NCBI GenBank assembly: GCA_022820625.1
Contig: JAJEFE010000141.1
Coordinates: 1-64,000, forward strand
Direction of reading: 5' to 3'
DNA: 64,000 bases
From: Gammaproteobacteria bacterium
GTDB taxonomy: Bacteria > Pseudomonadota > Gammaproteobacteria > Steroidobacterales > Rariloculaceae
How positions within the stretch are numbered: position 1 is the first letter of the stretch; the number at the start of each line of letters is the position of its first letter. Shown here in pieces: positions 6,999 through 63,131 of the stretch. Below the pieces are notes generated by a model, which saw only the letters and a program-made list of their open reading frames with translations, was not told the DNA's origin and searched no databases. The position numbers and the translations under genes are program-made.

Positions 6999-7784
6999 AT
7001 GCCCGAACTGCTGACCGATCCCGCGTTTGTCGCCATTGCGATCGTCGCGGTTCTCGTTACCGGTATTTCCAAGGGGGGATTCGGGGGCGTCGCCCTGCTG
7101 GCCGTCCCGCTGATGTCGCTGGTCATATCGCCCATACAGGCGGCGGGCATCATGCTGCCGATCATGATTCCCATGGACTTTCTCAGTATCTGGATGTACC
7201 GGAAACGCTGGGACGCGCGCAACCTGGCCCTGCTGATACCGGCGGCCACGGTGGGCATCACCATCGGCGGGCTGACCGCCGGCTGGGTCAACGACCAGAT
7301 CGTGCGCCTGCTGGTGGGCATCATCGCCGTGGTGTTCACGATTCACCGCGTCAACGAACTGTACCGGCACCGGGCGGCCGGGCAACCGCAGCCCCGCAGG
7401 GTTCCCAGCAAGCCCTGGGGCGTGTTCTGGGGCACCTGTGCGGGGTTCACCAGCTTCCTGGCCCACGCCGGGTCGCCGCCCTACCAGGTCTATGTCATTC
7501 CACAGGGCCTGAAGAAGGAGATCTACGCCGGCACGAGCGTGATGTTCTTTGCCGCCGCCAATGCCATCAAGCTCATCCCCTACGGGATGCTGGGCCAGCT
7601 TTCGGTGACCAACCTGTCGGTGTCCGCGGCACTCTTGCCGCTGGTACCCATCGGCGTCTTTCTGGGCGTGTGGATCAACCGCCGCCTGCCCGAAAAGACC
7701 TTTTTCGCGATCGTTCTGGCCTCCATCTTCCTTGTGGGCCTGAAGCTGATATGGGATGGTGTGTCGAATCTGGCCGGGGTGTAG
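6999..7784 (+). CDS. TauE/SafE (TSUP) family membrane exporter
   Basis: A 261-residue protein with about eight membrane helices and the TSUP signature GISKGGFGG near residue 22. A second, related repeat begins around VFWGTCAGFTSFLAHAGSPP (the TSFLAHAG motif). Members export sulfite, sulfoacetate or similar anions, commonly in gene sets that strip sulfur from organosulfonates. Its place between a dehydrogenase and a sulfatase supports a role in removing inorganic sulfur released in catabolism. The exact anion is inferred, not visible. Confidence 0.88.
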   Translation: MPELLTDPAFVAIAIVAVLVTGISKGGFGGVALLAVPLMSLVISPIQAAGIMLPIMIPMDFLSIWMYRKRWDARNLALLIPAATVGITIGGLTAGWVNDQIVRLLVGIIAVVFTIHRVNELYRHRAAGQPQPRRVPSKPWGVFWGTCAGFTSFLAHAGSPPYQVYVIPQGLKKEIYAGTSVMFFAAANAIKLIPYGMLGQLSVTNLSVSAALLPLVPIGVFLGVWINRRLPEKTFFAIVLASIFLVGLKLIWDGVSNLAGV

Positions 7785-7815
7785 CCGGCCAAGTGAAACC
7801 CGGGAAAATCTAGCA

Positions 7816-12631: not shown

Positions 12632-13024
12632 TCAGGGACCGACTGCGGTCCCGTCTTCGTGTGTCAGCGAATCCCAGCCGATGGTGTTGGAACCATCTCG
12701 TGAGGGGTTCCCCACGATGGTCAATCTCGTTCCCGGCAGAATGGTTTCGTCGGTCCAGCCACGGCGGAACAGGACGTTGCGCCCGCCGCCCTCCGCCATC
12801 CACTCCTCGACCTCACCGTCTTCATTGGTGACTTCGAGATAGATTCGCGTGTGCGGATTCTGAAACCACCACTCGGTGACGACGCCCTCGATGGTGACGG
12901 TCTCGTCGATGTCGAAGTGGGCCGCGAAGGAATGGTGAGCGGAAGCCTGGCCAACCAGAAGTAGCAGAACGGCCGCCAGGAGAGCGGTGAGACCACTTCG
13001 TATTCTGTCTGTGTTGTCAATCAT
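12632..13024 (-). CDS. DUF6152-type secreted protein (N module alone)
   Basis: A 130-residue exported protein. The ATG at 13024 overlaps the previous stop as ATGA. The signal peptide ends GQASA and the mature chain would start HHSFAAHFD. Family landmarks are TIEGVVTEWWFQNPH, with the NPH histidine 28 residues after the first His, and FRRGWTDETI. It is predicted to be a small beta-rich periplasmic protein. It is the third gene in a C, N+C, N series downstream of a TAXI transporter. Its function is unknown; the N-terminal His pair suggests a metal site, which is inference. Confidence 0.8.
   Translation of the reverse strand: MIDNTDRIRSGLTALLAAVLLLLVGQASAHHSFAAHFDIDETVTIEGVVTEWWFQNPHTRIYLEVTNEDGEVEEWMAEGGGRNVLFRRGWTDETILPGTRLTIVGNPSRDGSNTIGWDSLTHEDGTAVGP
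12635..12652 (+). terminator. Candidate terminator hairpin after dctQM
   Basis: A perfect 7-bp stem (GGGACCG with CGGTCCC) and a 4-base loop start 11 bases after the dctQM stop, between convergent genes. The hairpin also covers the last codons of the convergent minus-strand gene. The following bases (GTCTTCG) contain only a weak T-rich stretch, so termination efficiency is uncertain. Confidence 0.4.
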
Positions 13025-14058
13025 CGGTTTGAAAGCTCCGGTGTGCAGTCGTAGCTGCTGACGGAATACAGCGACGGCATGTAGTAGTTGGTGCCCGAAA
13101 ACGGCTCGGTAAAGTACTCTGGATCCTCGGCGGTCCAATCCAGCGTAATCGACATCTCATCGGGTTCCACGGTCAGCCGCTCCGTCACATGCAGCGCCGC
13201 GCTATGGAGGATTCCCGGGTGGGGCGTCAACACGCCAGGGGCAAACCCGATCGTGTCGATCACCAGCGTGGAGCCTTCGTACCAGCCGATGGAATGCCCG
13301 TACGGTTGCGGGACCGGCGACGGTTCATGTTCCCGGGCCAGACGAATGGTCCGCACGGTGTCCATGTACTCGTGGCGGATCACCACGCGATCCTCGTGCT
13401 GCTCGATGTCCGTGGGCGTACCGGGCTCGCTCCAGGCGCGGGTGATGCTGGAGGCGCTGCATTCGAAGGACGGATCGTCGAACCGCTCGTCATAACCTTC
13501 GGCGGCCTCAAGGCCCGCGGGCGTGAGACGGTCGGCGCCGGGCCGTGCCGAACCGGGGCCGGGGCCGCGTTGCCCGCGACTTCTGTCGCGCATCCAGGGA
13601 CCGGCCAGATTGGGAATGCCCCCATCGAGAAATGCCGCCCTGGGCGCGTCGCCCGTCGCGGACTCGGGGGGCGGCACGACCGCGCCGGAGCGGGCGATGG
13701 CGGTTCCGTCGGTCAACTCCGCAGAGGTGAAGGAGCAACCCAGCGGATCGCGCCGTGCCGCGATGCCCTGGACGGTCACCACCTGACCGACGGTAAATCG
13801 ATCCTCGGTCCACCCCTGCCGCCGCAGCGTGTTGGCAGTCTGCATCTCGCAGGCCCAGACCACCGGCTCGCCGCTCTCGTTCTCCGCGCGGATGTGCAGG
13901 AATGCGTGGGGATTGACGAATTCGAATTCCTCCACCACGCCCTCGATGGTGATCGGCCGTTCCCGATCGTAGTGCGGCGCATTGGAGTGGTGGGCACCGG
14001 CCGTGGCCCATGCAAACCAGAGTGCCGCCCCGCTTGATAGGACGAAGATTTTTCTCAT
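13021..14058 (-). CDS. Secreted protein with DUF6152-type N module and C module
   Basis: A 345-residue exported protein. ATG 14058 is favoured because GGAGGAG lies 10 bases upstream; a GTG at 14067 sits almost on that site. After a signal peptide ending TAGA the chain starts HHSNAPHYD, followed by FEFVNPH and LRRQGWTEDRF. The second half is the C module: a GPW motif, FECSAS, GHSIGWYEGSTLV and a C-terminal YDC. The C-module motifs match the stand-alone protein encoded just upstream, so the domains probably act together. No enzymatic motif is recognised. Confidence 0.8.
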   Translation of the reverse strand: MRKIFVLSSGAALWFAWATAGAHHSNAPHYDRERPITIEGVVEEFEFVNPHAFLHIRAENESGEPVVWACEMQTANTLRRQGWTEDRFTVGQVVTVQGIAARRDPLGCSFTSAELTDGTAIARSGAVVPPPESATGDAPRAAFLDGGIPNLAGPWMRDRSRGQRGPGPGSARPGADRLTPAGLEAAEGYDERFDDPSFECSASSITRAWSEPGTPTDIEQHEDRVVIRHEYMDTVRTIRLAREHEPSPVPQPYGHSIGWYEGSTLVIDTIGFAPGVLTPHPGILHSAALHVTERLTVEPDEMSITLDWTAEDPEYFTEPFSGTNYYMPSLYSVSSYDCTPELSNR

Positions 14059-14140: not shown

Positions 14141-14851
14141 CTAGAGTCTCTCGCGCAGAATACAGTCAAACGTCAGCAATTCCTGATCGTAGGGATTCCA
14201 GGTTTTTTGCAGCCGCCAGGGCTCGCTCAACATCACCGGATCGGTCAACTCCAGGTCCATCACCAGTTGCCCCCGATCCGTCAGCGAAAAGGTTTCAAGC
14301 AAGCTCGCTCCATCGCCCGTCCAGAAGAACCCCCGGTTCATATTGAGACCCGGCGAGAAACCGGTGGTGCGTACGATCAGCCTTTCCTGGTCCAGTTCGC
14401 CCATGGAATGGCCCATCGGACTGGGTTCGTGCCCGTCCGGCGGCGGTGCATCCAGATGCACCAATCGCTCAACCTCCCATTCCTCGTAGCGAATGCTCAC
14501 GACATCGCCGCGATACTCGATTTCCACGGGATAGGGGCTGAGGACCTGCCTTACCAGTCCCGGCTGCTCGCAGCGCACGGCCGGATCGTCCGCCGGATCG
14601 AAATCCGCCATCAACGCCTGACCGTGTTCGTTCAGCGCGGGCGGCGATCCCGTGATGCCCAGGATGCCCATGCCCCCGGCCATACCCATTCCCGGAGGCT
14701 GGGACTCGCCGGGCAACAGCGGCACCGGCGCACCCTGCCACCAGATGCCCGTCAGGTCCACGGCCGCATCCTGGGCGACGGCCGGCGCGCCAACCAGGAG
14801 TGCGGCCATGACACCGGCGACTACCGGGCGGGTTCGGGGAAGATCGTTCAT
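14141..14851 (-). CDS. Secreted C-module protein
   Basis: A 236-residue exported protein with an excellent ribosome site (GGAGG, 5 bases before the ATG at 14851). After the signal peptide it begins with the DLTGIW motif. It continues through a Gly/Met-rich patch (PPGMGMAGGMGILG), CEQPGLVRQVLSPYP, GHSMGELDQERLIV and ends near FDCILRERL. The two conserved cysteines suggest a disulfide. It lies 28 bases downstream of the TAXI permease and 82 before a fused N+C protein, so all appear to be one operon. Possible roles are a ligand-binding or periplasmic helper protein; none is shown. Confidence 0.78.
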   Translation of the reverse strand: MNDLPRTRPVVAGVMAALLVGAPAVAQDAAVDLTGIWWQGAPVPLLPGESQPPGMGMAGGMGILGITGSPPALNEHGQALMADFDPADDPAVRCEQPGLVRQVLSPYPVEIEYRGDVVSIRYEEWEVERLVHLDAPPPDGHEPSPMGHSMGELDQERLIVRTTGFSPGLNMNRGFFWTGDGASLLETFSLTDRGQLVMDLELTDPVMLSEPWRLQKTWNPYDQELLTFDCILRERL

Positions 14852-14879
14852 TGCAGCCTCCAGTCTCCTCCCTGACAGT

Positions 14880-16736
14880 CTATACCAGTTCACCGGAGCG
14901 GCTGGCGAACCGGCTGTATAGCAACCACAGTCCCGCCGCGGCGAGGCCCATGAGATCCGTCATCCAGCCCTGGCCGAGCAACCCGATGCCGGCCAGCGCG
15001 ATCCACAGGCGCCCCACCAACGTGAGGTCGCCCCGCAAATACCCGACGATCGCTGCCGCCAGCAAGAACACGCCAAGTACGCCGGTTACCGCGGTGAATC
15101 CGATATCCAGAAATGATCCATCGGCGAGCAGCGCCGGCCCGAAGAAGAACGCGAACGGCAGCAGGTAGCAGACCAGGCCGTAGCGGAACGCCGTCCACCC
15201 GACCCGGTTGACGTCCGCGTCGGCGACTCCGGCGGCGACGTAGGATGCCAGCGCCACGGGCGGGGTTATGGTCGACACGCAGCCGAAGAAGAATACGAAC
15301 ATGTGCGCCGTCAGCAACGGAACGCCCATTTCTGCCAGCGCCGGAGCCACCACGGTGGCCAGAATCAGGTAGGCCGCCGTGGTCGGCAGACCCATGCCCA
15401 GGATGATGGCCGCCACCATGGTGAGCAGCAGGCCGATCAGGGGAATGCCTCCGGACATGGAAATGATGAAGATGGAGAGCTTGGATCCCAGACCCGTGAC
15501 GGACAGAATTCCCGAGATGATGCCGGCGGCGGCGCACGCTGCGGAAATCGGTACGGCGCTTCTGACGCCGGCGACGATGGCCCGGCCGATCTTCCTGAAC
15601 AGCTCCATCGAGAGCGCTCTCGTCCAGAGCAGGTGCAGTCCGAGCAGCAGCGCGATGGCGTAGAAGGAAGCCTTCACCGGCGAATAGCCGGCGATCATCA
15701 TGCCCACCAGGGCGATGAAGGGAACCACGTAGGGGACACCGCTCAGCAGCGTCTTCGACAGGCGCTCGCCGCCGGCTTCCGGCTCGGCCGGACGGATTCC
15801 GCTCTTCAACGCCTGCAGATGCACCACCACCAGCACCGAGACGAAGAACAGCAGCGCGGGCATCAGCCCCGCCTTCATGATGTTCACGTAGGGCGTGCCG
15901 ACGATCTCCGCCATGATGAAGGCCGCCGCGCCCATGACCGGCGGCATGATCTGCCCCCCGGTGGACACCACCGCCTCGATGGCCCCGGCCTGGTGCGGCC
16001 GATAGCCTTCCCGCTTCATCACCGGGATCGTGAATGAGCCGGTGACCGCGACGTTGCCCGCCGCCGAGCCGGAGATCATTCCCAGCAGCGTGCTGAAGAT
16101 GACCGCGGTCTTGGCCGAAGCGGCCGTCATGCCGCGCGTCAACACGTCGGAGAACCGGAAAAAGAAACCGCCCGCGCCGAATTCCGAGAGAAAGGCGCCG
16201 AAGATGGTGAACAGGATGATGTAGGTGGACGCTACTCCGATCGGAATTCCGTAGATGCCCTGGCCCGAGAGCGACAGGAACGAAATCACGCTCTCAAGAC
16301 GCACGCCCCGCCCGTACAGCACACCGGGCAGATACGGAGAGACCATGGGGTAGGCAAGAAACACCGCCGTGATCACGGCGAGGAAATTGCCGGTTGCCCG
16401 CCGGGCCGCCTCCACCACCAGGAGGATGATCATGACGCCCACCGCGATGTCCGTGGTCGTCGTGGCGCCACCGCTGAACGCGATGTCCTCCCAGCGGGCC
16501 AGCAGGTAGATGCCGGTGCCCATCGCCGCAAGAAAGAGCAGCGCAATCAACCAGAGGCCGCCACGCCGCCGACCCGACTTCGCGGAATCGCCGGCAAGCA
16601 AAAAGATCAGCCCCAGCATCACCGTCAGGTGAACGGCTCGCACGACCATGGTGGACAGCACCAGCAGCCCGGACACGTTGGCCAGGTGGAACAGCCCGAG
16701 CGCCAGGGCCAGCGCGCCGATCAACCGCGTGCGCAA
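14880..16736 (-). CDS. TRAP-TAXI fused permease (4TM/12TM type)
   Basis: A membrane protein of about 618 residues with some 16-18 hydrophobic helices, typical of the fused permeases that pair with TAXI binding proteins. Landmarks are GRGVRLESVISFLSLSGQGI, GSAAGNVAVTGSFTIPVMK, GGQIMPPVMGAAAFIMAE and LGMGLPTTAAYLI. The start is uncertain: no ATG lies at the right place, and a TTG at 16736 gives the full first helix, just after the stop of the binding-protein gene. An in-frame ATG at 16823 would overlap that gene by about 70 bases. It imports an unidentified organic acid. Confidence 0.9.
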   Translation of the reverse strand: MRTRLIGALALALGLFHLANVSGLLVLSTMVVRAVHLTVMLGLIFLLAGDSAKSGRRRGGLWLIALLFLAAMGTGIYLLARWEDIAFSGGATTTTDIAVGVMIILLVVEAARRATGNFLAVITAVFLAYPMVSPYLPGVLYGRGVRLESVISFLSLSGQGIYGIPIGVASTYIILFTIFGAFLSEFGAGGFFFRFSDVLTRGMTAASAKTAVIFSTLLGMISGSAAGNVAVTGSFTIPVMKREGYRPHQAGAIEAVVSTGGQIMPPVMGAAAFIMAEIVGTPYVNIMKAGLMPALLFFVSVLVVVHLQALKSGIRPAEPEAGGERLSKTLLSGVPYVVPFIALVGMMIAGYSPVKASFYAIALLLGLHLLWTRALSMELFRKIGRAIVAGVRSAVPISAACAAAGIISGILSVTGLGSKLSIFIISMSGGIPLIGLLLTMVAAIILGMGLPTTAAYLILATVVAPALAEMGVPLLTAHMFVFFFGCVSTITPPVALASYVAAGVADADVNRVGWTAFRYGLVCYLLPFAFFFGPALLADGSFLDIGFTAVTGVLGVFLLAAAIVGYLRGDLTLVGRLWIALAGIGLLGQGWMTDLMGLAAAGLWLLYSRFASRSGELV

Positions 16737-23369: not shown

Positions 23370-24854
23370 CTAGCCCTCGCTGCCGTGTAACGCGTCGATC
23401 TGCGCCCGCAGCGCGTCGAGTTGCGCCTGTTCCTCCTCGGAGAGATCGCCGGCCATCAGGTCGTTGTGCTCGTACGGATCCGCCTGCAGATCGAAGAAAT
23501 GCTCGACGCCCTGGTCCACCAGCAATTTGTAACGCTGGTTGCGCATCGTGTACCCACCGCTTTCGAGACCCGCGTCGGTAGTAAAGGAATCGGCATAGAC
23601 CCATTGTCGAATCGACTCGCGGCCGGGGTCCGAGAGATAGGGCACCAGACTCACCGAGTCCACGGTGATTCCTTCGGGCACTGCCTCTGCGCTGTCGATG
23701 CCCGCCAGTTCGAGCAGCGTGGCAAACAGGTCCGCCGAGTTTACGAGCGCATCGGACACGGCGCCGCTCGCCACGCCGGGTCCCGCAATCATGAAGGGGA
23801 CATGAATGCCGCCGTTGTAGAGCGACCCTTTCGCGTACCCCGGTCGAAACGGCGCACGGACCGCGTTATCGCCGGTGCCGTTGTCGCCGATGAACAGGAC
23901 GTAGGTGTTCTCGAGCACCTCCGGGCCGATGTGATCGAGCAGCCGGCCGATCTCCGTGTCCATGGCCTCCATCATGGCATCGAAGAAGCGTGGATCCTGC
24001 TGCTCGGCATCCGCCACGCCAAAATCCGAAAAATCGGATTGCAGCAGATCCCGGGGCGGCATGTGAATGGGCGTATGCGGTGAATTGAACGCGAGCCAGA
24101 GAAACCAGGGCGCGTCACGCTCGGATGGGGCGCCCAGCCATTCAATGGCCTCATCCACCTTGTCGGTGACCGCGTAGCCGCTTCGAGTCGAGAACTCGCC
24201 ATTTTCCAGGTGCACCCAGGCGAAATAGCTCTCGGGACAGCAGCGGATCAGACCCGAGAAGTGGTCGAAACCCACGAGATTGGGATGATCCTGCCAACCG
24301 TTGCGAACGTCGGCGAGGTGCCACTTGCCGAACGCCGCCTTGTCATAACCCGGATCCGGACCGGCGGAGAGCGCCTGAGTCAACGCAAACTCGTCCCGGC
24401 CGATGCCCCACCGGGCACCGTCGGCGATGCCGGTGAATGTGAAGCCCATGCCCATGCCCATGCCCATGCCCGTTCCCGCACCCATGCCGAATTCAACGAC
24501 CCCGGCGGGGACCGGCGGCGGCTCGGGCATCGGTCCTCGCGCCTCGCCGTCGCCGGTGGGGCCGCCCACGCCGGTACGAAAGCCGTAACGGCCCGTCAGA
24601 ATCGTCGCCCGGGTCGGCGAACACATCGACTGGGACCACATGTTGGTAAAGCGAACGCCGCGCTCGGCCAGCGCATCCAGGGTCGCCGTCCTCGGCGTCT
24701 GCGTTCCCACGCCGAAGCTCGCCAGCGTTTCCACGCCCATATCATCGCCCAGGATGACCAGGATGTTGGGACGCGATCCGTCGGGCCCCTGCGCGTTGGC
24801 GGCGGAGGCCGCAACGAGCAGGCAAAAAGCCGCCTTCGCAATGTTATTGCCCAT
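23370..24854 (-). CDS. Type I sulfatase
   Basis: A 494-residue exported sulfatase with a signal peptide ending ANA. It has ILVILGDDMG with the calcium-binding Asp pair, the formylglycine motif C78-S-P-T-R with ATILTGRYGFRTG, FGKWHLA, and GDNGTGDN at the metal site. Between the active site and GKWH there is an insert with a Gly-Met run coded by a hexanucleotide repeat (24445-24486). It is closely related to the sulfatase at 58910-60379. It is the last gene of a five-gene minus operon; its start lies within a 13-bp tandem repeat directly after the preceding stop. Confidence 0.95.
   Translation of the reverse strand: MGNNIAKAAFCLLVAASAANAQGPDGSRPNILVILGDDMGVETLASFGVGTQTPRTATLDALAERGVRFTNMWSQSMCSPTRATILTGRYGFRTGVGGPTGDGEARGPMPEPPPVPAGVVEFGMGAGTGMGMGMGMGFTFTGIADGARWGIGRDEFALTQALSAGPDPGYDKAAFGKWHLADVRNGWQDHPNLVGFDHFSGLIRCCPESYFAWVHLENGEFSTRSGYAVTDKVDEAIEWLGAPSERDAPWFLWLAFNSPHTPIHMPPRDLLQSDFSDFGVADAEQQDPRFFDAMMEAMDTEIGRLLDHIGPEVLENTYVLFIGDNGTGDNAVRAPFRPGYAKGSLYNGGIHVPFMIAGPGVASGAVSDALVNSADLFATLLELAGIDSAEAVPEGITVDSVSLVPYLSDPGRESIRQWVYADSFTTDAGLESGGYTMRNQRYKLLVDQGVEHFFDLQADPYEHNDLMAGDLSEEEQAQLDALRAQIDALHGSEG
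24445..24486. repeat. Hexanucleotide repeat inside a sulfatase gene
   Basis: Seven six-base units: four perfect CCCATG (24445-24468), then CCCGTT, CCCGCA and CCCATG. On the coding minus strand it encodes alternating Gly-Met with Gly-Thr/Gly-Ala variants. The unit length keeps the frame, so slippage would change only the number of Gly-Met pairs. Confidence 0.85.
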
Positions 24855-24868
24855 TATTGTTGCCCATT
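24843..24868 (-). repeat. 13-bp tandem repeat at a stop/start junction
   Basis: Two 13-base units (AATGGGCAACAAT and AATGGGCAATAAC, 11 of 13 identical) cover the junction between the two-domain secreted protein and the sulfatase. The first copy supplies an ATG overlapping the upstream stop (TAATG at 24869-24865) that opens a seven-codon frame, MGNNNGQ. The second copy supplies the real sulfatase ATG at 24854. Confidence 0.7.
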
Positions 24869-25895
24869 ACCTGTATATCGAAATATCGGTGTCCCGAAGT
24901 TCGCACTCGAAACGTTCGCCGGGCTCTATACCCGGCAGCATCTCATCGCCGGGCTTGTAGAACCAGGTGTGATCCCAGATTGCAGGTTCCACCAGGTACT
25001 CCGGATCCGTGATGATGATCTCGTACGCAAGCTCGGTCTCGTCCTCGCTCATCGTGTAGCGTTCGAGCATCGAAACGTCCTCGCTCATCGGCCTGCCGTC
25101 CTGATCGAGGTACGGCCAGTTGAACTGTGTTGTTTCAACGACGAGCGTCCTGTCCCCCTCCCAGCGCCCGACCGAATACCCGAGATGACTGGGTGCCCGA
25201 GTCTGCCCGCGCACCTCTTCACTCATGTGAAACACGCGCTGCTGACCCCATTCCTCGATCCGCTGGACGATCCGGTCGCCCTCGTCGATCAGCTCGATGG
25301 GATAGGGATTAAGGATGGCGTTCGGCATACCCGGCGGTATGCACTTGAGACTCGGATCGTCGGTTCTCGCGTCGTAACCGTCCAGCGCTTCCTGGGCTGC
25401 AGGCGTGAGCACGAACGGGTTGCGGAGCTGATATCGAGTCTCAAAACTCCATACCTTGAAAATTCCGGTGCCGGCAGCATCGGCCGCGCTGGCCAGCGCC
25501 ACCTCGTTTTCCGATGAAGCGGTTCGTCGCACCGGTACCTCCTCACCGTCAGGCAAGAGCACATGAGAAGGGCCGCCGAATATCATGCGATCGCCTCGCC
25601 GGGAAACTCTCCCGCCTGCCCTGACGCGGTCGCCGACCTTCACGGAGTCCCTGGAAAATCCCCTTCGTATCAGTTCGCTCGTGGTATTGCCTTCCGTTAC
25701 CCATTCTTCGACTACGCCGTCGGCATTCACCACTTCGATGGTGAAACCGGTATGGGGATTTCTCCAGAAGACTTCGGTGACGGTACCCTCGATTTGCACT
25801 CTCCTGTCTTGATCGTAGAACGCCACAACCGAATGGTGTCCCAGCACCGGCCAGGAGAGCGTCAGGAGCGCTAGTAAAACGGTAATTGATCTCAT
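24867..25895 (-). CDS. Secreted protein with DUF6152-type N module and C module
   Basis: A 342-residue exported protein (ATG 25895, GGGGA upstream). The signal peptide ends WPVLG and the mature chain starts HHSVVAFYD. N-module landmarks are VFWRNPH, with His 28 residues after the first His, and LIRRGFSRDSV. The C module has KCIPPGMPNAILNPYP, LGYSVGRWEGDRTLVV, where Tyr replaces the usual His, and a final FECELRD. It lies between sulfatase genes in one operon, the strongest contextual link between this family and sulfate-ester breakdown. Its function is unknown. Confidence 0.8.
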   Translation of the reverse strand: MRSITVLLALLTLSWPVLGHHSVVAFYDQDRRVQIEGTVTEVFWRNPHTGFTIEVVNADGVVEEWVTEGNTTSELIRRGFSRDSVKVGDRVRAGGRVSRRGDRMIFGGPSHVLLPDGEEVPVRRTASSENEVALASAADAAGTGIFKVWSFETRYQLRNPFVLTPAAQEALDGYDARTDDPSLKCIPPGMPNAILNPYPIELIDEGDRIVQRIEEWGQQRVFHMSEEVRGQTRAPSHLGYSVGRWEGDRTLVVETTQFNWPYLDQDGRPMSEDVSMLERYTMSEDETELAYEIIITDPEYLVEPAIWDHTWFYKPGDEMLPGIEPGERFECELRDTDISIYR

Positions 25896-26020: not shown

Positions 26021-27628
26021 TCAGCGAGCCGTCGGCATCGCAGCCGAAACGGACTCGCGCCAGGCGTGAAGCCGGGCACGCAGTTCGGCAGCTTGCTCAG
26101 GCTGCTCGGCAGCCAGATCGCGCTGTTCGCCGGGATCGTTCTGAAGATCGAAGAGTTGCACGGTGCCGTTTTCGAAGTACTCCAGCAGCTTGTAGGCGCC
26201 ATCCCGGACCGCACCGCCGGGACTCTGCATGCCGTGATTGCTGTAGTGCGGGAAGTGCCAGAAGATCGCTCCGCGCTCGAATGCGCCGCCTTCGAGAGCG
26301 GCGGCAAAGCTCACGCCGTCGACGTGCTGTTCCGGCCTGGACGGCAAGCCGGCCATCTCGAGCAGGGTCGGATAGAAGTCGGTGCTGATCACGGCTTCGT
26401 CGCGAACCGCGCCGGCCTGGCCCACGCCCGGCCACCGCACGATCAGCGGCACGCGTATGCCGCCTTCGTACAACCAGCCCTTCGCGCCGCGCAGGGGCAG
26501 ACTGGACGTTGCGTAAGCGACGTCCAGCTCGCCGGGGTCCACCACCCGCTCCGGATTGCCGAAGTTGGCTGCCGCCATGCCTCCGTTGTCGGAGTAAAAG
26601 ACGACGATCGTATGCTCCGTCAGTCCCAGTTCCTCAAGCATTCGGAGCACACGCCCCATGCTTTCGTCGACGGTGGTGACCATCGCGGCGAACTGGACAT
26701 TGTCCTGATGCTGCTTGATCTTGACCGTGCGCCGGGGCAACACCCGGTATTCCCCATGCGAGGGCTCCTGCCCCAGGGCATCCAGTTGGGCGGGCGAAAG
26801 CGGCTCGGGATCGTCCGGGTTACCCTCCAGTCTGTATGCGGGACCAGCCGGCACTTCCGCCGATTTCAGCTTCTCCCGGTACCGTAATACCAGGTCCGGA
26901 CGCCCCTCGATCGGGTCGTGTACGGCGAAGTGCGACAGATAGAGGAAGAAGGGCGACACCCGGCTCTGCTCCATGAACTCCAGAGCCAGGTCGGTGATCC
27001 GGTCGGTGAGGTAGGTGTCCTCCTCTCCCTCGACCGTCAGGCCTTCCATCCTGTACGGCGGGAAGTAGCCGCCCCGAGGGGTCGATCCGTAGAATCGAGG
27101 CGCCTGGACGTCGAATCCCTGGTGGAGGGGGCCGGCTTCGCCTTCGCCGAGGTGCCACTTGCCGAAGATCCCCGTCCGGTAGCCGTGCTCCTGCAACGCT
27201 TCGGCCAGGGTGAGTTCCCCAAGCGGCAGGGCCGCCAGCTTCTCGCCGCTCAGCAAGCGTTCGAAGTCACGCCCGGGGCGCCCCGGCAACCAGTCCGTCA
27301 GGCGTAGCCGCGCCGGGTACTTGCCGGTCAGCAGCGCCGCGCGCGTTGGCGAGCAGACGTGGGCGGCGGCGTAGGCGTTGGTGAAGCGTACGCCCTGTTC
27401 GGCCAGCCGGTCGATGTTCGGCGTCTCGTGGAACGTGCTGCCGAAGACGCCGATGTCACTCCAGCCCAGGTCGTCGACCATGAAGAAGACGATGTTCGGC
27501 GGCCTTTCCGTCGCTGCCGGAGCATCGGGCACGCTCTGCGCGAAGACAAACGCGGCGAACAGACAGAAAGGCACGGCAACGAGAGCGCTGCCGATTTTTG
27601 TGACCGGGAAATTTGGCATGGAATTCAT
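26021..27628 (-). CDS. Type I sulfatase
   Basis: A 535-residue exported sulfatase. The ATG at 27628 has GGGAGG four bases upstream and yields a signal peptide ending FVFAQ. Motifs: IVFFMVDDLGWSD (calcium Asp pair), C92-S-P-T-R followed by AALLTGKYPARLRLTDW, FGKWHLGEGEAG, and YSDNGGM at the metal site. The ARLRLTDW region and overall length recall the sulfatases acting on glycosaminoglycan-like or other polysaccharide sulfates, but the substrate is unproven. It is the middle gene of a sulfatase operon with a quinoprotein dehydrogenase at its head. Confidence 0.95.
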   Translation of the reverse strand: MNSMPNFPVTKIGSALVAVPFCLFAAFVFAQSVPDAPAATERPPNIVFFMVDDLGWSDIGVFGSTFHETPNIDRLAEQGVRFTNAYAAAHVCSPTRAALLTGKYPARLRLTDWLPGRPGRDFERLLSGEKLAALPLGELTLAEALQEHGYRTGIFGKWHLGEGEAGPLHQGFDVQAPRFYGSTPRGGYFPPYRMEGLTVEGEEDTYLTDRITDLALEFMEQSRVSPFFLYLSHFAVHDPIEGRPDLVLRYREKLKSAEVPAGPAYRLEGNPDDPEPLSPAQLDALGQEPSHGEYRVLPRRTVKIKQHQDNVQFAAMVTTVDESMGRVLRMLEELGLTEHTIVVFYSDNGGMAAANFGNPERVVDPGELDVAYATSSLPLRGAKGWLYEGGIRVPLIVRWPGVGQAGAVRDEAVISTDFYPTLLEMAGLPSRPEQHVDGVSFAAALEGGAFERGAIFWHFPHYSNHGMQSPGGAVRDGAYKLLEYFENGTVQLFDLQNDPGEQRDLAAEQPEQAAELRARLHAWRESVSAAMPTAR

Positions 27629-27711
27629 TGCGCCTCCCTGGTTGTGTGATGTCCCTTCATGGTTCGACCATAGACTAGTCGAGTCCTCCGGCACAGAGCT
27701 TCTTTCCGTGT

Positions 27712-29127
27712 TCAACGAGAGTCAAAGAGCGACGGGCGCGTTTCCATGGCTGCCTGATGCTCTCGCACGGCCTCGAGCATCTCCGCCAGGATCTCGGGGC
27801 GCTCGGCCGCCAGGTCCCAGGATTCGCCCGGGTCTTCACCGAGATGATAGAGAAGCGGCGTCTCATGCTCGTTCCGCTCCGGTCCGATTCCGTACGCCTT
27901 TTCGGTGATCAGGTGAATCTTGTACGGCCCCTTGCGAAGTGCATACAGCTCACCGGCGCGGTAGTGGGCCAGGACCTCGCGTGTTCCCGGCTCGCCCCGC
28001 AGCAGTGTGCCGCTCAGGTCGACGCCATCCAGAATGTCTTCGGTCGTACCGCCGGCGAGTGCGAGCAGGGTCGGGAAGAGATCCATCGCGGAGCCGATAT
28101 CGCGTACCACGCCCGGCTGTATGCTGCCGGGCCACCACATGACGCCCGGTACCCGGATTCCACCCTCGAAGGTTGTCCCCTTGCCGTTTCGCAACGGACC
28201 CGCGGTGCCCTTGTCGGTGCGCATGGAGAGCCAGGGGCCATTATCGCTCGTGAATACGACCAGCGTGTCTTCCGCCACGCCCGCGCGCTCAAGGCTTCGG
28301 CGTATCTCTCCCGCGCTCCAGTCGATTTCCTCGATGACATCTCCATAGCGTCCCGCAAGGCTCGTACCCGCGAACTCGGGTGCCGGAAAGAGGGGCGTGT
28401 GCGGCATGGTGTAGGGGACGAAAAGAAAAAAGGGCCGATCCGAGTGACGGTCGATGAATTCCTGCGCCTGTTGCGTATAACGGCGCGTGATCGTCTCCTG
28501 GCGGGCTGGCCGTTCGAGGATCTGGTCATGATATTCCTGACCCACCGATTGGCTCTGCATCAGCGGGACGTTCCAGTACTCGATTCTCGGAGAGAAATAG
28601 GCACCGGGGACACGTTCATCAGTCCCGTCCATGTCGTTCGAATAAGGGATTCCGAACCAGTAGTCGAAACCGTGCCGCGTCGGCAGGTGTTCGGGCCGGG
28701 CCCCGAGGTGCCACTTCCCGACGATCCCGGTGGCGTAACCCAATTCCCGCAAGGCCTCGGCGATCGTGGTGTTCTCTTCGGAGATGCCGCCCGCCTGATT
28801 GGGAAAGAGCACGCGTGACCTGTGGCCATACAGTCCGCTGCGGTTTGGCTGCTTGCCGGTGAGCAGGGCACCGCGGCTGGGCGAGCACACCGCCGAGGCC
28901 ACGTAGAAGTCGGTCCACCTCTGGCCTTCCGCCGCCATGGCGTCCAGATTCGGCGTGCGGATGGAAGGGTGCCCATAGCTTGAGAGGTCGCCATAGCCGA
29001 GATCGTCGGCGAACAGGATGACGAAGTTGGGCATGCGCCGTGGAGGCGATTCCGCGGGCTGGGCTGCAAGAGCAAGCGGCAGCAGAGCCAGGCAAATGAG
29101 GAAGCAGAGGTTTCTTGTACCGGTCAC
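27712..29127 (-). CDS. Type I sulfatase (arylsulfatase A-like)
   Basis: A 471-residue exported sulfatase, GTG start at 29127 with AGGAG six bases upstream. Motifs: FVILFADDLGYGD, the canonical formylglycine site C81-S-P-S-R with GALLTGKQPNRSG, VGKWHLGARPEHLP and TSDNGPW. Its length and the HTPLFPAPEF segment are closest to the arylsulfatase A group. It shares an operon with two other sulfatases of different subgroups, suggesting the set removes several sulfates from one complex substrate rather than being simple duplicates. Confidence 0.95.
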   Translation of the reverse strand: MTGTRNLCFLICLALLPLALAAQPAESPPRRMPNFVILFADDLGYGDLSSYGHPSIRTPNLDAMAAEGQRWTDFYVASAVCSPSRGALLTGKQPNRSGLYGHRSRVLFPNQAGGISEENTTIAEALRELGYATGIVGKWHLGARPEHLPTRHGFDYWFGIPYSNDMDGTDERVPGAYFSPRIEYWNVPLMQSQSVGQEYHDQILERPARQETITRRYTQQAQEFIDRHSDRPFFLFVPYTMPHTPLFPAPEFAGTSLAGRYGDVIEEIDWSAGEIRRSLERAGVAEDTLVVFTSDNGPWLSMRTDKGTAGPLRNGKGTTFEGGIRVPGVMWWPGSIQPGVVRDIGSAMDLFPTLLALAGGTTEDILDGVDLSGTLLRGEPGTREVLAHYRAGELYALRKGPYKIHLITEKAYGIGPERNEHETPLLYHLGEDPGESWDLAAERPEILAEMLEAVREHQAAMETRPSLFDSR

Positions 29128-41312: not shown

Positions 41313-42383
41313 ATGAGGCACTGTGCAGTCGCGTTCCTGGCGTCGGCTGCGGCGTTGGCAGGCGGAGTGGTCAATGCGCACCACTCCGCCAACGCCGCCT
41401 TCACCACGAACATCATCGAGGTCGAGGGAACGGTCACGGATTTCAACTTTACCAATCCCCACATCGATGTCTTCTTGGATGTGGTCGGCGAAGACGGCGA
41501 GGTGACCGAGTGGCGGGCCAGCGGCTCGGCCGCCAACCTGATGCGGCGGCGCGGATGGACCGCCCAGACCGTGCAGCCGGGCCAGTACATGCGGATCAGC
41601 GGCAGGGAAGCCCGCAATGGCGTGCCCATGGTGTTGCTGGGCAACATGTCCGAACTGGACCCGGCAGACGGTTCCCTGATTCGGGTCGTGGAAGGCGAGA
41701 GCGACTATGTCGAACCTGTAGGCGCCTCCCCCCTGGCGCTGACCCTGGATGACGGCCGTCCGAACTTCACCGGCGCCTGGACCATGGGCCCCGGCGGCGG
41801 CAGCATGGGGGCGGGCGGAATGGGGATGGGTGGCGGCCCGGGCGACCGCACACCGCCTCCCTACAACGAGGCGGGCACAGCCGCGGCAGCGGCGTTCGAT
41901 CCCGTCAGCGACCCGGTCGTGGCCTGCGAACCGCCAGGCCTGGTCCGTCAGGCGGCGTTTACGCCCCATCCCGTGCGGATGACGCAACTGGAAGACCGGA
42001 TCATCCTGGAGTACGAAGAGTACGGCGGGCGGCGCGAGATCCTGCTGGACGCGCGGCAGCCCGGCGATATCGAACACACTCATCTGGGTTACTCGACGGC
42101 GCGATACGAGGGCGACACACTGGTCATCGAGTCAAGCCGGCTGCTGGAGAACTACACCAGTCCTCTCGGCAATCCCGTGAGCGACCGGACCACCATGGTA
42201 GAGACCTTCAGCCGCATGGACGATCCCGACATCGGCGCGGCGCTGGCGTTGGAAACGGTGATCACGGACCCGGCCTATATGACGGGACCCTGGACGCTTC
42301 GCTGGCTCAAGTACTACACACCGGAATACGAGTTCATTCCAAACGATTGCCGCGTGCCGCCGGTGTACCAACCGCCCGGGTAA
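41313..42383 (+). CDS. Secreted protein with DUF6152-type N module and C module
   Basis: A 356-residue exported protein. The signal peptide ends VVNA and the mature chain starts HHSANAAFT. N-module landmarks: EVEGTVTDFNFTNPH, with His 27 residues after the first His, and LMRRRGWTAQTV. C-module landmarks: NFTGAW, a Gly/Met-rich insert (GGGSMGAGGMGMGGGPG), CEPPGLVRQAAFTPHP, LGYSTARYEGDTLVI, where Tyr replaces His, and NDCRVPP. It directly follows a TonB receptor and is probably co-transcribed, placing this family in the envelope path of an imported compound. Confidence 0.8.
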   Translation: MRHCAVAFLASAAALAGGVVNAHHSANAAFTTNIIEVEGTVTDFNFTNPHIDVFLDVVGEDGEVTEWRASGSAANLMRRRGWTAQTVQPGQYMRISGREARNGVPMVLLGNMSELDPADGSLIRVVEGESDYVEPVGASPLALTLDDGRPNFTGAWTMGPGGGSMGAGGMGMGGGPGDRTPPPYNEAGTAAAAAFDPVSDPVVACEPPGLVRQAAFTPHPVRMTQLEDRIILEYEEYGGRREILLDARQPGDIEHTHLGYSTARYEGDTLVIESSRLLENYTSPLGNPVSDRTTMVETFSRMDDPDIGAALALETVITDPAYMTGPWTLRWLKYYTPEYEFIPNDCRVPPVYQPPG

Positions 42384-58909: not shown

Positions 58910-60379
58910 CTATCGGTGCGCGCGAAGCTCGCGCACCCGGTTCCTCAGAGCCTCGAATTCCGCCTGTTCCTGCTCGGTCAGATCACGGTCCAGGAGGTTG
59001 GAATGCTCGTAAGGGTCCTCCCGCAAGTCGTAGAATTCCTCCACCCCTTCGAAGCGAACCAATTTGTAGCGTTGGTTGCGCATCGCGTAGTCGGCTGTCT
59101 CCACCCCGTCGAAACCGCCGAAGAATTCGTCAACGTAGAGCCAATCCCGCGCGGATGGCGCCCCCGGATCCGAAAGCGCCTCGAGAAAGCTGACGGAATC
59201 GTGGGAGACGTGCTGCGGTACGGCCGCAACGGGGTCCACACCCGCCATCTCCATGATCGTCACGAAGAGATCCGTCGAATTGACCAGCGCCTCGGAGACT
59301 TCGCCCTGGGAAACTCCGGGTCCGGTCACGATCAGGGGTACGTTGACGCCTCCCTCGTAGACCGTACCCTTGGCGCGGTCGCGGCGGAACGGGGCGCTGA
59401 CAACCGGCCCCCAGGTGCCGTTGTCGCCCATGAAGATGACATAGGTGTTGTCGCGAACTTCCGGGCGCAGACCGGCCAGCAGCCGGCCGATCTGCGTATC
59501 CATGGCCTCGAGCATTGCCTCGAAGGCCGCCCGCCAGCGCTCCGGGGGCATGGCGTCCGCCGGCACGTGGGAGTAATCCGACTGCCGATACTCCACCGGC
59601 GGCACGTGCATCGGCGTGTGCGCAAGGTTGAATGCAAACCACAGGAACCAGGGTTCCTCTCCCCGTCGATCGAGCCATGCGATGGCGTCGTCAACCTTGT
59701 CCTGAGGTGCGTAGCCCACGGTGCCCGTGACCTGGCCGTTGACCACCTTTCTCCAGGCGAAATACGACTCGGGCCCGCCACCCATCAGCCCCGCGAAATG
59801 ATCGAACCCGGTCAGATTGGGGTGGTCGATCCAACCGTTTCCGTCACCCGCGAGATGCCACTTGCCAAAGGCCGCGGTGGCATAACCCGGATTCGCATGC
59901 GCCTTCAGCGCCATGGGCAGGGCGTATTCCTCCGGCAGAAGAAAGGGCCGCGGCAAGGCCCGGTCGGAAGCCAGGGCAGGATTCGGTTCGTTCCGTGACT
60001 CGGCAGGCGACCCGGTGGGAATTTCCGGAGGAGGCGGCATGGGGCCGGAGCCCACCGGCCGGCCGATGCCGGTCCGGAAACCGTAACGCCCGGTGATCAC
60101 CGTGGCGCGGGTTGGAGAACAGACCGGCTGCGCCCAGAAGTTGGTGAACCGAACGCCCTCCCTCGCCAGGCTATCCAGCGTGTCCGTGGCGGGAGCCTGC
60201 TCGCTGAGCCCATAGGACGCGAGTGTCTCCACGCCCATGTCGTCCCCGATGATGAGCAGGATATTCGGGGCGGCGCCGGCTCCATTCCACACCGTTGGAA
60301 GGATGCATACGCCTGCCGCCAGGACCGCCAGCCGGCGAAATGCCGTAATCCGTAAGCCATGTATTCCGGACGTATTCAT
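58910..60379 (-). CDS. Type I sulfatase
   Basis: A 489-residue exported sulfatase, signal peptide ending AGAAP. Motifs: ILLIIGDDMGVETLASYG, C87-S-P-T-R with ATVITGRYGFRTGIG, AFGKWHLAGDG and GDNGTWGP. It is closely related to the sulfatase at 23370-24854 along its length, but its insert after the active site is Pro/Ser-rich where the other has Gly-Met repeats. It probably works with the TctA-TctB transporter encoded just downstream, removing sulfate from a compound before uptake. It needs formylglycine formation by an enzyme not encoded here. Confidence 0.95.
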   Translation of the reverse strand: MNTSGIHGLRITAFRRLAVLAAGVCILPTVWNGAGAAPNILLIIGDDMGVETLASYGLSEQAPATDTLDSLAREGVRFTNFWAQPVCSPTRATVITGRYGFRTGIGRPVGSGPMPPPPEIPTGSPAESRNEPNPALASDRALPRPFLLPEEYALPMALKAHANPGYATAAFGKWHLAGDGNGWIDHPNLTGFDHFAGLMGGGPESYFAWRKVVNGQVTGTVGYAPQDKVDDAIAWLDRRGEEPWFLWFAFNLAHTPMHVPPVEYRQSDYSHVPADAMPPERWRAAFEAMLEAMDTQIGRLLAGLRPEVRDNTYVIFMGDNGTWGPVVSAPFRRDRAKGTVYEGGVNVPLIVTGPGVSQGEVSEALVNSTDLFVTIMEMAGVDPVAAVPQHVSHDSVSFLEALSDPGAPSARDWLYVDEFFGGFDGVETADYAMRNQRYKLVRFEGVEEFYDLREDPYEHSNLLDRDLTEQEQAEFEALRNRVRELRAHR

Positions 60380-60633: not shown

Positions 60634-61020
60634 ATGCTGAAAATCGCGACCTTTCTTCTCACCGTGGGGCTTGCCGTGTCAACCGCGTTTGCACATCACG
60701 GTCGGGCATCCTATTCGAACGAAATCATTTCGCTGGACGCAACCGTTACGGAGTTCAGGTTTGTCAACCCGCACGTTCAGATCTATTTCGACATTACCAA
60801 CGAGGACGGCGATATCGAACATTGGCAGGGCGAGCTGACCGCACCCAACAAACTGGCCCGGGGCGGCTGGTCAAAGAACACGCTGCAACCGGGGGACCGG
60901 ATCCGGATCACCGGCCGCGCCGGGAGGAACGAGGGGCACTCGGTGGCGATCAACGAAATCATAATGCCCGACGGACAGGCCATCCCGCTTTGGGAAGTGC
61001 TTGACGCACCCACACGCTAG
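60634..61020 (+). CDS. DUF6152-type secreted protein (N module alone)
   Basis: A 128-residue exported protein. The signal peptide ends TAFA and the mature chain starts HHGRASYSN. Landmarks: VTEFRFVNPH, with the NPH histidine 26 residues after the first His, and LARGGWSKNTL. It begins a four-gene plus-strand series N, C, C, N. The 254-base gap before it, shared with the divergent sulfatase, should hold both promoters, but none is obvious. Confidence 0.8.
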   Translation: MLKIATFLLTVGLAVSTAFAHHGRASYSNEIISLDATVTEFRFVNPHVQIYFDITNEDGDIEHWQGELTAPNKLARGGWSKNTLQPGDRIRITGRAGRNEGHSVAINEIIMPDGQAIPLWEVLDAPTR

Positions 61021-61047
61021 AACAACAACGCCCCCTGGAGGTAAGCC

Positions 61048-61842
61048 ATGGAACGGACAACCTGTTCGATCCTCGGAATGATCGTAATGCTGGGATTTTC
61101 GGGCGTTGCAAGCGCGCAATTCGGGACCGGCAGCCCGGTCTCAGCCGAGCCCCTGGAAAATGGCCCGGCGCCGGTTCGAGACCTTGCCGGTGTCTGGACC
61201 CGTATCAGGCCCGAGGGCACATTTCGCAGCGGCGCCACGTGGACTCCGGACCCACCTCAACTGACCGCCTGGGGCGAGGAACGCTTCGCCACGGCGAGGG
61301 ATTCCAATGCCGGCGGCTTCTCGCTTGCGGAAACCAACGATCCGGTCCTTACACGTTGTTATCCGCCAGGAACACCGCGTGTGTATTTCCATCCCTATCC
61401 CTTCGAAATCGTCTATACGGATACGCAGACGATCATGCTTTACGAGTACGATCACACGATCCGCAGAATCTTCACCGACGGGCGAGAGCATCCGGAGGAT
61501 CCGGTGGCCCTGTGGATGGGTCATTCCATCGGGCACTGGGAGGATGACACTACCTTCGTCGTCACGACGGTCGGAATTGACGAGCGCACCTGGATGGATC
61601 GGTCGGGCTACCAGCACAGCGACCAACTCAAGGTGACCGAAGTATTTCGCCGCATCGACTTGCTGAACATGGAAATCGACATCACCCTGGAGGACTCTGT
61701 CGCGCTGGCGGAACCGTGGGTCGCGGAAACACTCTACTACCGGCTGGCTCCGCTGCATTGGGAATTGAGCGAAATCAGCTGCTCGGGTGACTATCTCGAT
61801 TTCGGCGCCTTCGAAAGCTTTCTGGAAAACGGCCAGGAATAG
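61048..61842 (+). CDS. Secreted C-module protein
   Basis: A 264-residue exported protein with GGAGG five bases before the ATG and a signal peptide ending ASAQ. Module landmarks: DLAGVWTR, RCYPPGTPRVYFHPYPFEI, RRIFTDGREHPEDP, MGHSIGHWEDDTTFVV, HSDQLKVTEVFRR and a late ISCSG. The two conserved cysteines could pair. It follows a stand-alone N-module protein by 27 bases, so the fused proteins elsewhere are here split into two co-transcribed genes. Function unknown. Confidence 0.78.
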   Translation: MERTTCSILGMIVMLGFSGVASAQFGTGSPVSAEPLENGPAPVRDLAGVWTRIRPEGTFRSGATWTPDPPQLTAWGEERFATARDSNAGGFSLAETNDPVLTRCYPPGTPRVYFHPYPFEIVYTDTQTIMLYEYDHTIRRIFTDGREHPEDPVALWMGHSIGHWEDDTTFVVTTVGIDERTWMDRSGYQHSDQLKVTEVFRRIDLLNMEIDITLEDSVALAEPWVAETLYYRLAPLHWELSEISCSGDYLDFGAFESFLENGQE

Positions 61843-61865
61843 GCGCGAGCGTCGAGCGCAAAGGC

Positions 61866-62648
61866 ATGGCGAGCATCAAGTTCCCTTGGGCAGTCACGAT
61901 TCTTGCGGCGCTCGTTTTCCCCGCAACGGGTTCTGTGGCGCAGGCGCCGGAAGGAGCACCCGACCTCAGCGGCACGTGGAGCGATCCGCCCCCGAGGGCC
62001 GAGGATAATTTCTGTCACGTCGGCTGCACGGTCGCCGCCCGGGACTACCTTACCCAACTCCTTGACGACCCTGCCAACCTGGACCGTTCCTACGCCGAGT
62101 TGCGGCAGGTAGCCCAGCGCTTCAACTCTTCCGAGCACATCCCGAACCACCTTACGGAAGAGGCGCTTGCCAACTACCCCTTCGACCCCGCCACCAGTCC
62201 GTCGCTGACCCAATGCATGCCGTGGGGATTCACGCGCCAGATACTGGCGCCCCACGCCATGGAACTCACGCAGTTCGATGACCGCGTCACGCTGTACTAT
62301 TCCGAATGGACGGCGCTGCGCACCGTCTATACCGACGGCCGCGCGCTGCCTGCGAATCCCACGCCGAGATTGCTGGGACACTCGGTCGGGCACTACGAAG
62401 GCGATACCCTGGTGGTGGAGACGATCGGGGTGGCCGCGGATCACTCCAATGCAGGCTTCGCCCACAGCGATCAGCTTACGGCTGTCGAGCGTTTCACAAG
62501 ATCAGCCGATGGCAGCCGTCTTGATGTTGAAGTGACATTTTCGGACCCGGCAACGCTGATCACGCCGCTGGTCATGGCACGCGCCTGGGGCTGGGCTCCC
62601 GGTGAGGAAATCTATCCTTACGAAGACTGCGTCATACCGGGAGAGTAA
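61866..62648 (+). CDS. Secreted C-module protein
   Basis: A 260-residue exported protein, signal peptide ending SVAQ. Landmarks: DLSGTWSD, an extra FCHVGCTV pair of cysteines, QCMPWGFTRQILAPHAMEL, LRTVYTDGRALP, LGHSVGHYEGDTLVVETIG, HSDQLTAVERF and a final YEDCVIPGE. It is the second C-module protein in the series and differs from the first by about 60 extra residues after DLSGTW. It starts 23 bases after the previous stop. Confidence 0.78.
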   Translation: MASIKFPWAVTILAALVFPATGSVAQAPEGAPDLSGTWSDPPPRAEDNFCHVGCTVAARDYLTQLLDDPANLDRSYAELRQVAQRFNSSEHIPNHLTEEALANYPFDPATSPSLTQCMPWGFTRQILAPHAMELTQFDDRVTLYYSEWTALRTVYTDGRALPANPTPRLLGHSVGHYEGDTLVVETIGVAADHSNAGFAHSDQLTAVERFTRSADGSRLDVEVTFSDPATLITPLVMARAWGWAPGEEIYPYEDCVIPGE

Positions 62649-62654
62649 CGCCAC

Positions 62655-63131
62655 ATGCCATCCTCCATACGCCTGCAATTGCCAGCGTCAGTCTGCGCAG
62701 CCGTGCTGATGTGCGCGCTGCCGCCCCTGCGTGCACTTGCCCACCATGCCTTTGTCGCGGTTTACGACCCCCGGGAAACCGCGACCATAGAAGGTGAATT
62801 CGCGGGCCTGGAGTTGGTCAATCCCCACGCCCGGGTCTACATAGATGTCACGGCGGAAAACGGCCATATCGAGCAATGGACCGTTGAAGCGGCAGGCAAA
62901 CTGTCCCTGGCCCGGCGGGGATGGACGGACGACATGTTCCGGCAGGGCGAAGTCCTTACTGCTGTCGGTCATCCCGCGTTATCCGGGGCAAACGCGATGT
63001 GGATGGTGAGGATCGTCAGGTCGGACGGCAGCGAATACTATGCTCCGAACGTCGAGGATGCCAACGCCATTGAAGCGGAGCGCCGCGAACGCGCCCGCCG
63101 GGCTCAGGAGCAAGCTCTGGAACAACAATAG
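62655..63131 (+). CDS. DUF6152-type secreted protein (N module alone)
   Basis: A 158-residue exported protein, six bases after the previous stop. The signal peptide ends LRALA and the mature chain starts HHAFVAVYD. Landmarks: LELVNPH, with His 28 residues after the first His, and LARRGWTDDMF. It has a charged C-terminal tail (EAERRERARRAQEQALEQ), probably a helix, which the other members lack. It closes the series and is convergent with the TctC-like gene. Confidence 0.8.
   Translation: MPSSIRLQLPASVCAAVLMCALPPLRALAHHAFVAVYDPRETATIEGEFAGLELVNPHARVYIDVTAENGHIEQWTVEAAGKLSLARRGWTDDMFRQGEVLTAVGHPALSGANAMWMVRIVRSDGSEYYAPNVEDANAIEAERRERARRAQEQALEQQ

Follow-up and report, generated by a model that had tools for sequence, protein, structure and literature searches.

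In LPMOs and CopC-like proteins, copper is held by an N-terminal histidine together with a second histidine. The canonical histidine brace is a T-shaped N3 site made up of the amino group of His1, the ring of His1, and the ring of the second histidine. In CusF, the ligands are an internal histidine, two methionines, and a tryptophan. For other families, a 2025 paper (PMC12537917) put forward the general idea that a metalloprotein can be recognized by an N-terminal histidine following its signal peptide. In these signal-strapping families (DUF4198, DUF6702, Ang-1, and Ang-2), Ni or Cu binding has been shown for proteins with an N-terminal histidine, and the anglerases are linked to membrane permeases (PMC12537917). 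In YcnJ of Bacillus subtilis, the Cu(II)-binding histidine of CopC and the conserved histidine of CopD are both required for function (PMC13344008).

The stretch of DNA analyzed here (the window) is 64,000 nucleotides long and corresponds to positions 1 to 64,000 of the forward strand of contig JAJEFE010000141.1 from Gammaproteobacteria bacterium, assembly GCA_022820625.1 (GTDB lineage Pseudomonadota; Gammaproteobacteria; Steroidobacterales; Rariloculaceae). It is part of contig C3 of a 4.56-Mb draft genome, below called the host genome. Six window proteins carry an N module, and all six match DUF6152 (PF19649) with 64 to 99 bits versus a curated cut-off of 27. Some are fused to a second domain, the C module, which also occurs as a stand-alone protein. 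The features are as follows (a slash marks the predicted cleavage site).

12632..13024, minus strand: stand-alone DUF6152 protein (profile match); likely start at the ATG 29 codons before His-His; mature part 12635-12937
13021..14058, minus strand: fused N- and C-module protein with DUF6152 match; mature part 13024-13992; two-domain AlphaFold2 model, pLDDT 89.9
14141..14893, minus strand: stand-alone C module; C-module profile E 9.6e-44; no Pfam family
24867..25895, minus strand: fused N- and C-module protein; mature part 24870-25838; DUF6152 and C-module profile matches
41313..42383, plus strand: fused N- and C-module protein; mature from 41379; DUF6152 and C-module profile matches
60634..61020, plus strand: stand-alone DUF6152 protein, 128 aa; signal peptide residues 1-20, mature from 60694; PF19649 E 6.5e-21; AlphaFold2 OB fold, pLDDT 88.9
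60694..60699, plus strand: His1-His2 codons of the 60634 protein at its predicted mature N terminus (A-F-A/H-H, read from the DNA)
60766..60774, plus strand: Asn-Pro-His codons of the 60634 protein, mature residues 25-27, in loop L12 between strands 7-22 and 29-35
61048..61842, plus strand: stand-alone C module of the calycin/FABP-like barrel family; has its own signal peptide, which ends before Gln, and lacks HH; C-module profile match; no Pfam family
61866..62648, plus strand: another stand-alone C module, also with its own signal peptide and lacking HH; C-module profile match; no Pfam family
62655..63131, plus strand: stand-alone DUF6152 protein, 158 aa; mature from 62742; PF19649 E 1.5e-17
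62742..62747, plus strand: His1-His2 codons of the 62655 protein (A-L-A/H-H, read from the DNA)
62820..62828, plus strand: Asn-Pro-His codons of the 62655 protein, mature residues 27-29 (read from the DNA)

The genes at 60634-63131 form a tight four-gene row in the order N (60634), C (61048), C (61866), N (62655), separated by gaps of 27, 23, and 6 bases. The gene at 12632..13024 has a 4-base overlap with the stop of the adjoining gene. Five sulfatases are also encoded among the DUF6152 genes of the window (7756-9558, 23370-24854, 26021-27715, 27712-29127, and 58910-60379).

The initial annotation had noted that the signal peptides of the six N-module proteins end in Ala or Gly directly before His-His and that Asn-Pro-His follows 26 to 28 residues downstream in each. 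Both observations hold for all six proteins, with A, A, G, A, A, A as the residue before His-His, and cleavage predicted from core hydrophobicity and the -3/-1 rule falls directly before His-His in every one. From the loci of the host genome we took 151 distinct DUF6152 frames, 149 of them full length. His-His directly follows the signal peptide in 149/149 of the full-length copies, the histidine of a PH or AH pair is present in 149/149, and the -3/-1 rule is obeyed in 148. These copies are highly divergent (median pairwise identity, 28%; 146 are mutually <75% identical), and the only columns that are 100% conserved among them are His1, His2, and the loop histidine. The strict motif is PH (99%) rather than NPH, as the Asn is only 85% conserved. 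A larger set of 269 sequences combines these 149 with 120 from other Pseudomonadota of several classes. HH is found in 269/269, the -3/-1 rule is obeyed in 267, and a hydrophobic core lies upstream of HH in 268. The loop histidine, at about mature position 27 to 32, is likewise found in 269/269 (266 PH and 3 AH). Copies on sphingomonad and rhizobial plasmids also have HH after a signal peptide, as well as PH.

As a control for bias, a profile was built solely from the residues that follow the HH and NPH motifs. This profile found 267 domains and no complete homologue without HH; HH is missing only from L056, which has lost its 5' end, from L082, a fragment lying at the edge of its locus, and from L158, an ORF judged spurious. 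The sequence [A/G/S/T/P]HH occurs upstream in 1 of 147 stand-alone C-module proteins, which are exported from the same loci, and the background frequency of histidine at position +1 of secreted proteins is 2.6% (PMC12537917). As a feature of the sequences, the His-His pattern of the window's N-module proteins is confirmed as real and beyond chance. One protein at locus L061 contains a weak, degenerate second OB match, internal to the chain, that lacks both HH and PH; this is what one would predict for a motif that has a role only when the N terminus is free. The DUF6152 frames at L061 (G000:C127) comprise 255 and 261 mature residues and have an extra C-terminal part.

AlphaFold2, run on 90 aligned mature DUF6152 domains, gave a confident OB fold (pLDDT 88.9) with strands at residues 7-22, 29-35, 41-47, 69-77, and 83-90 and a helix at 51-56; residues 1-10 are modeled with low confidence (mean, 74). 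The best matches of the model among solved structures are SSB/PriB (Foldseek E 5.8e-4; VIA Z 9.2 over 81 residues, 2.4 Angstrom), and by sequence the N module has no match below E 0.26 to the proteins of solved structure. The model places the third histidine (residue 27 of the 60634 protein) in loop L12 of the OB fold. Mean-field covariation was computed on the 269 sequences (effective number, 204) after near-invariant columns had been taken out, and it recovers the barrel pairs 74-84, 19-33, 33-43, and 15-71. Residues 3-7 couple most to L45 (75-79 and 83-87) and then to residues 28-31, just after the loop histidine, and 46-48. The signal near the loop histidine is moderate (7-29 at rank 48 and 6-30 at rank 66 of 3851). 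Couplings 1-27 and 2-27 appeared in a first covariation run and were discarded as an artifact of invariant columns. The N-terminal segment would thus sit at the end of the barrel, flanked by the loop that carries the third histidine, a placement for which the covariation is supportive and not proof.

Like an LPMO, DUF6152 has a histidine at predicted mature residue 1 (HH in 269/269) and a second conserved histidine elsewhere in the chain, that of loop L12 (269/269). It differs in its length of about 100 aa, its HH start, the lack of any sign of a polysaccharide substrate, and its fold: the confident model is an OB fold (SSB/PriB Z up to 9.2) and not an LPMO-type beta-sandwich. The resemblance to the CopC/CopD system (PF04234/PF05425; YcnJ, PMC13344008) lies in an extracytoplasmic protein with a candidate metal site at an N-terminal histidine, encoded beside a probable CopD-superfamily membrane protein with a conserved transmembrane histidine. 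Unlike CopC, however, DUF6152 has an OB fold, HH instead of a single histidine, and no CopC sequence match (PF04234 does not appear among the Pfam hits listed for 90 N modules and has no match in the host genome). Because its fold differs, we do not consider DUF6152 a member of the LPMO or CopC families. DUF4198, DUF6702, Ang-1, and Ang-2 are, like DUF6152, secreted domains of unknown function with a conserved N-terminal histidine, but theirs are beta-sandwiches with a single one. CusF-type chaperones resemble DUF6152 as small periplasmic OB-fold barrels (here, a signal peptide and a predicted OB fold) for which copper holding is proposed, whereas the candidate ligands of DUF6152 are N-terminal. 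Among the 149 copies there is no conserved Met column, and a CusF-like set of one His and two Met was not found. SSB and PriB, the closest matches in structure, are cytoplasmic nucleic-acid binders and have no motif in common with DUF6152.

The distribution of DUF6152 is very uneven. At least 148 domains occur in the host genome and at least 148 copies also in three relatives, and nine other genomes of the same family have 4 to 125. None was found in seven genomes from elsewhere in the order, outside this family, or in 14 well-known control genomes. In a sample of 299 other Pseudomonadota genomes, there is nearly always one copy per genome among the matches listed (31 rows, host included). In 80 of the 149 full-length host copies the domain is fused to a C module, giving proteins of 290 to 380 mature residues. 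The C module, taken from a fusion, was modeled confidently (pLDDT 89.9) as a calycin/FABP-like barrel (CRABP2, Z 10.3 over 130 residues, 4.0 Angstrom), and its invariant residues are Trp, Cys, Arg, Gly, Leu, and Glu. It has no credible match in Pfam, neither module has one in NCBIfam, and the C module has zero matches among solved-structure sequences. The host genome encodes 139 C modules, so that N and C modules stand at a ratio of at least 148:139, and a same-strand C module lies no more than 1.5 kb from 125 of 148 N modules, where chance would give about 9%. At L080 (6179-8014, minus strand), a 612-residue protein joins DUF6152 and a C module to a further C-terminal domain, about 270 residues long. 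This extension looked by eye like a hydratase, an assignment that we rejected since it has no Pfam match.

Other neighbors of DUF6152 in the host genome are sulfatases and metallo-beta-lactamase-fold proteins (7 each of the 85 proteins scanned), TonB receptors, and sugar-type dehydrogenases; sulfatases rank with the most frequent neighbors across the genome. In single-copy genomes, they are GMC oxidoreductases and aldehyde dehydrogenases. Given these neighbors, in the single-copy genomes as well as in the host, we rejected a copper-homeostasis neighborhood.

A membrane protein family, DUF6644, lies within 5 kb of the DUF6152 gene in 27 of the 30 other DUF6152-bearing genomes (not in G029, G260, and G278), mostly as the very next gene, and it is close to DUF6152 on two plasmids as well. 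The genus and family of the window have many DUF6152 genes, and DUF6644 adjoins one of them, most often as a tandem pair; in the host genome, such a pair was seen beside one of about 150 copies, on contig C130, in the order C-N-M-M (M, DUF6644). DUF6644 has four hydrophobic stretches, with an invariant TM1 histidine and invariant G, Lys, Trp, and Gly-Arg, and zero matches among solved-structure sequences. When 10 DUF6644 proteins were compared with the CopD Pfam model (PF05425), one exceeded the cut-off (E 7.8e-9) and one was below threshold (E 1.5e-4). In hhalign, DUF6644 aligned with CopD sequences at E 6.8e-5 and 63% probability, with the TM1 histidine aligned. We conclude that DUF6644 is probably a four-helix membrane protein and a distant relative of CopD, from which it differs in having 4 TM segments and in often occurring as tandem pairs. 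The host genome has neither a CopC match nor an ordinary CopD match. Tandem, divergent DUF6644 pairs near DUF6152 were often seen (L121, L122, L125, L127, L116, L118, and L119), and such a pair may form a heterodimer to which each partner contributes its invariant TM1 histidine.

We propose the following account, to which we give a probability of roughly 60% for the metal site, the DUF6644 partnership, and the barrel-ligand specificities taken together. Cleavage of the secreted OB-fold protein by signal peptidase would leave a free His1-His2 N terminus, as the sequences support. We infer, with good support, that this terminus and the invariant L12 histidine would form a mononuclear transition-metal site of the histidine-brace type. 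Copper is the likeliest metal because of the link to CopD. Judging from gene order and homology, the ancestral, usually single-copy DUF6152 protein would work beside DUF6644 as CopC does with CopD, its periplasmic site capturing or holding metal and exchanging metal or electrons with the membrane protein. Within the gammaproteobacterial family of the window, the domain has expanded to about 150 divergent copies in a genome, and most of these are fused to the FABP/calycin-like barrel or encoded beside it. As the least certain step, the likeliest reason why so many copies keep the same metal site while the rest of the protein varies would be that each site faces a different small hydrophobic ligand in its barrel, making a metal-dependent binding protein or enzyme. 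The copy number, the catabolic neighbors, and the ligand-barrel partner point to such a protein with many specificities and not to simple copper resistance.

A histidine-brace metal site is what the initial annotation had suggested, and this prediction is partly supported: invariance, loss of the motif in the internal L061 copy, the position of the loop histidine in L12, covariation, and the CopD-related neighbor favor it, but the invariance of His2 falls outside the canonical brace. It leaves room for an Xaa-His (GHK-like) or a three-His arrangement. That annotation knew of no metal proposal for the family, and in our search of the indexed open-access literature no paper names DUF6152 or DUF6644 and none brings together OB fold, histidine brace, and copper.

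The site could hold metal without being a brace, if the N-terminal amine, the first amide nitrogen, and the His2 imidazole bound Cu(II) or Ni(II) in Xaa-His fashion, with the loop histidine as fourth ligand and another role for the His1 ring. This would explain why His2 is as invariant as His1, beyond what a brace needs; GHK-type motifs bind Cu(II) and accept a further imidazole ligand (PMC7503498), and the signal-strapping authors rejected candidates with a second ligand at position 2 on steric grounds, which left such sites out of the published brace search (PMC12537917). The requirement for histidine at residue 1 is then left unexplained, however, and we consider this arrangement unlikely. 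It is possible, although we do not favor it, that the metal is Ni, Zn, Fe, or Co, serving uptake or a hydrolytic or non-copper redox reaction. DUF4198, another N-terminal-histidine family, prefers Ni (PMC12537917), and the host neighbors include sulfatases and metallo-beta-lactamase-fold proteins (the same 7 of 85 each) and no copper genes. Against this, the sole membrane partner found is probably related to CopD.

OB folds usually bind ligands across the face of strands 2 and 3, with loops L12 and L45. The histidine region of DUF6152 lies at this L12/L45 face and the C module has a ligand-barrel fold, so the histidines, with no role as metal ligands, might instead be the binding site for a haem, or for a ligand of anionic or aromatic nature, within the OB cleft. 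We find this quite improbable, since histidine in 100% of sequences exactly at the mature N terminus is readily explained only by chelation through a free alpha-amine, and since the loss of the motif in the internal L061 copy and the CopD-like partner also argue for metal. HH does sit at the cleavage site, and one might see in it a signature of processing or export with no role in the mature protein. Yet just 1 of 147 partner proteins exported from the same operons has it, and the third histidine, at least 25 residues away, is equally invariant; such a signature is very hard to reconcile with these data.

Returning to the metal site as the preferred reading, a more far-reaching version is that DUF6152 and its calycin-barrel partner constitute a new superfamily of secreted mono-copper enzymes on an OB fold (oxidases, monooxygenases, or peroxygenases of small hydrophobic molecules). 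In one gammaproteobacterial lineage these would have been amplified until a genome holds about 150 specificities, and DUF6644 would be their ancestral partner in the membrane, for redox or metal. We regard this version as speculative and rather doubtful. If the site does hold metal, the OB fold would join the scaffolds of known N-terminal-histidine metal sites, and a first function would be available for the un-named Pfam families DUF6152 and DUF6644 and for the C module, which is absent from Pfam. A metal site would also matter for understanding a very large expansion of paralogues (about 150 copies in 4.6 Mb) and would suggest that these bacteria have a metal-dependent toolkit for degrading organic matter. 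Going by their sequences, the approximately 150 different host copies suggest a large uncharted set of metal-dependent proteins. Two decayed DUF6152 copies were also seen (L056, G000:C124:14376-14588, and G000:C166:54195-54398); in one the 5' end is missing, and the other has an in-frame TAG. Finally, a contig labeled Chloroflexi bacterium (L085, VXPS01000100.1) carries a copy that is 90% identical to the window's 12632 protein, and this contig is probably mis-binned.
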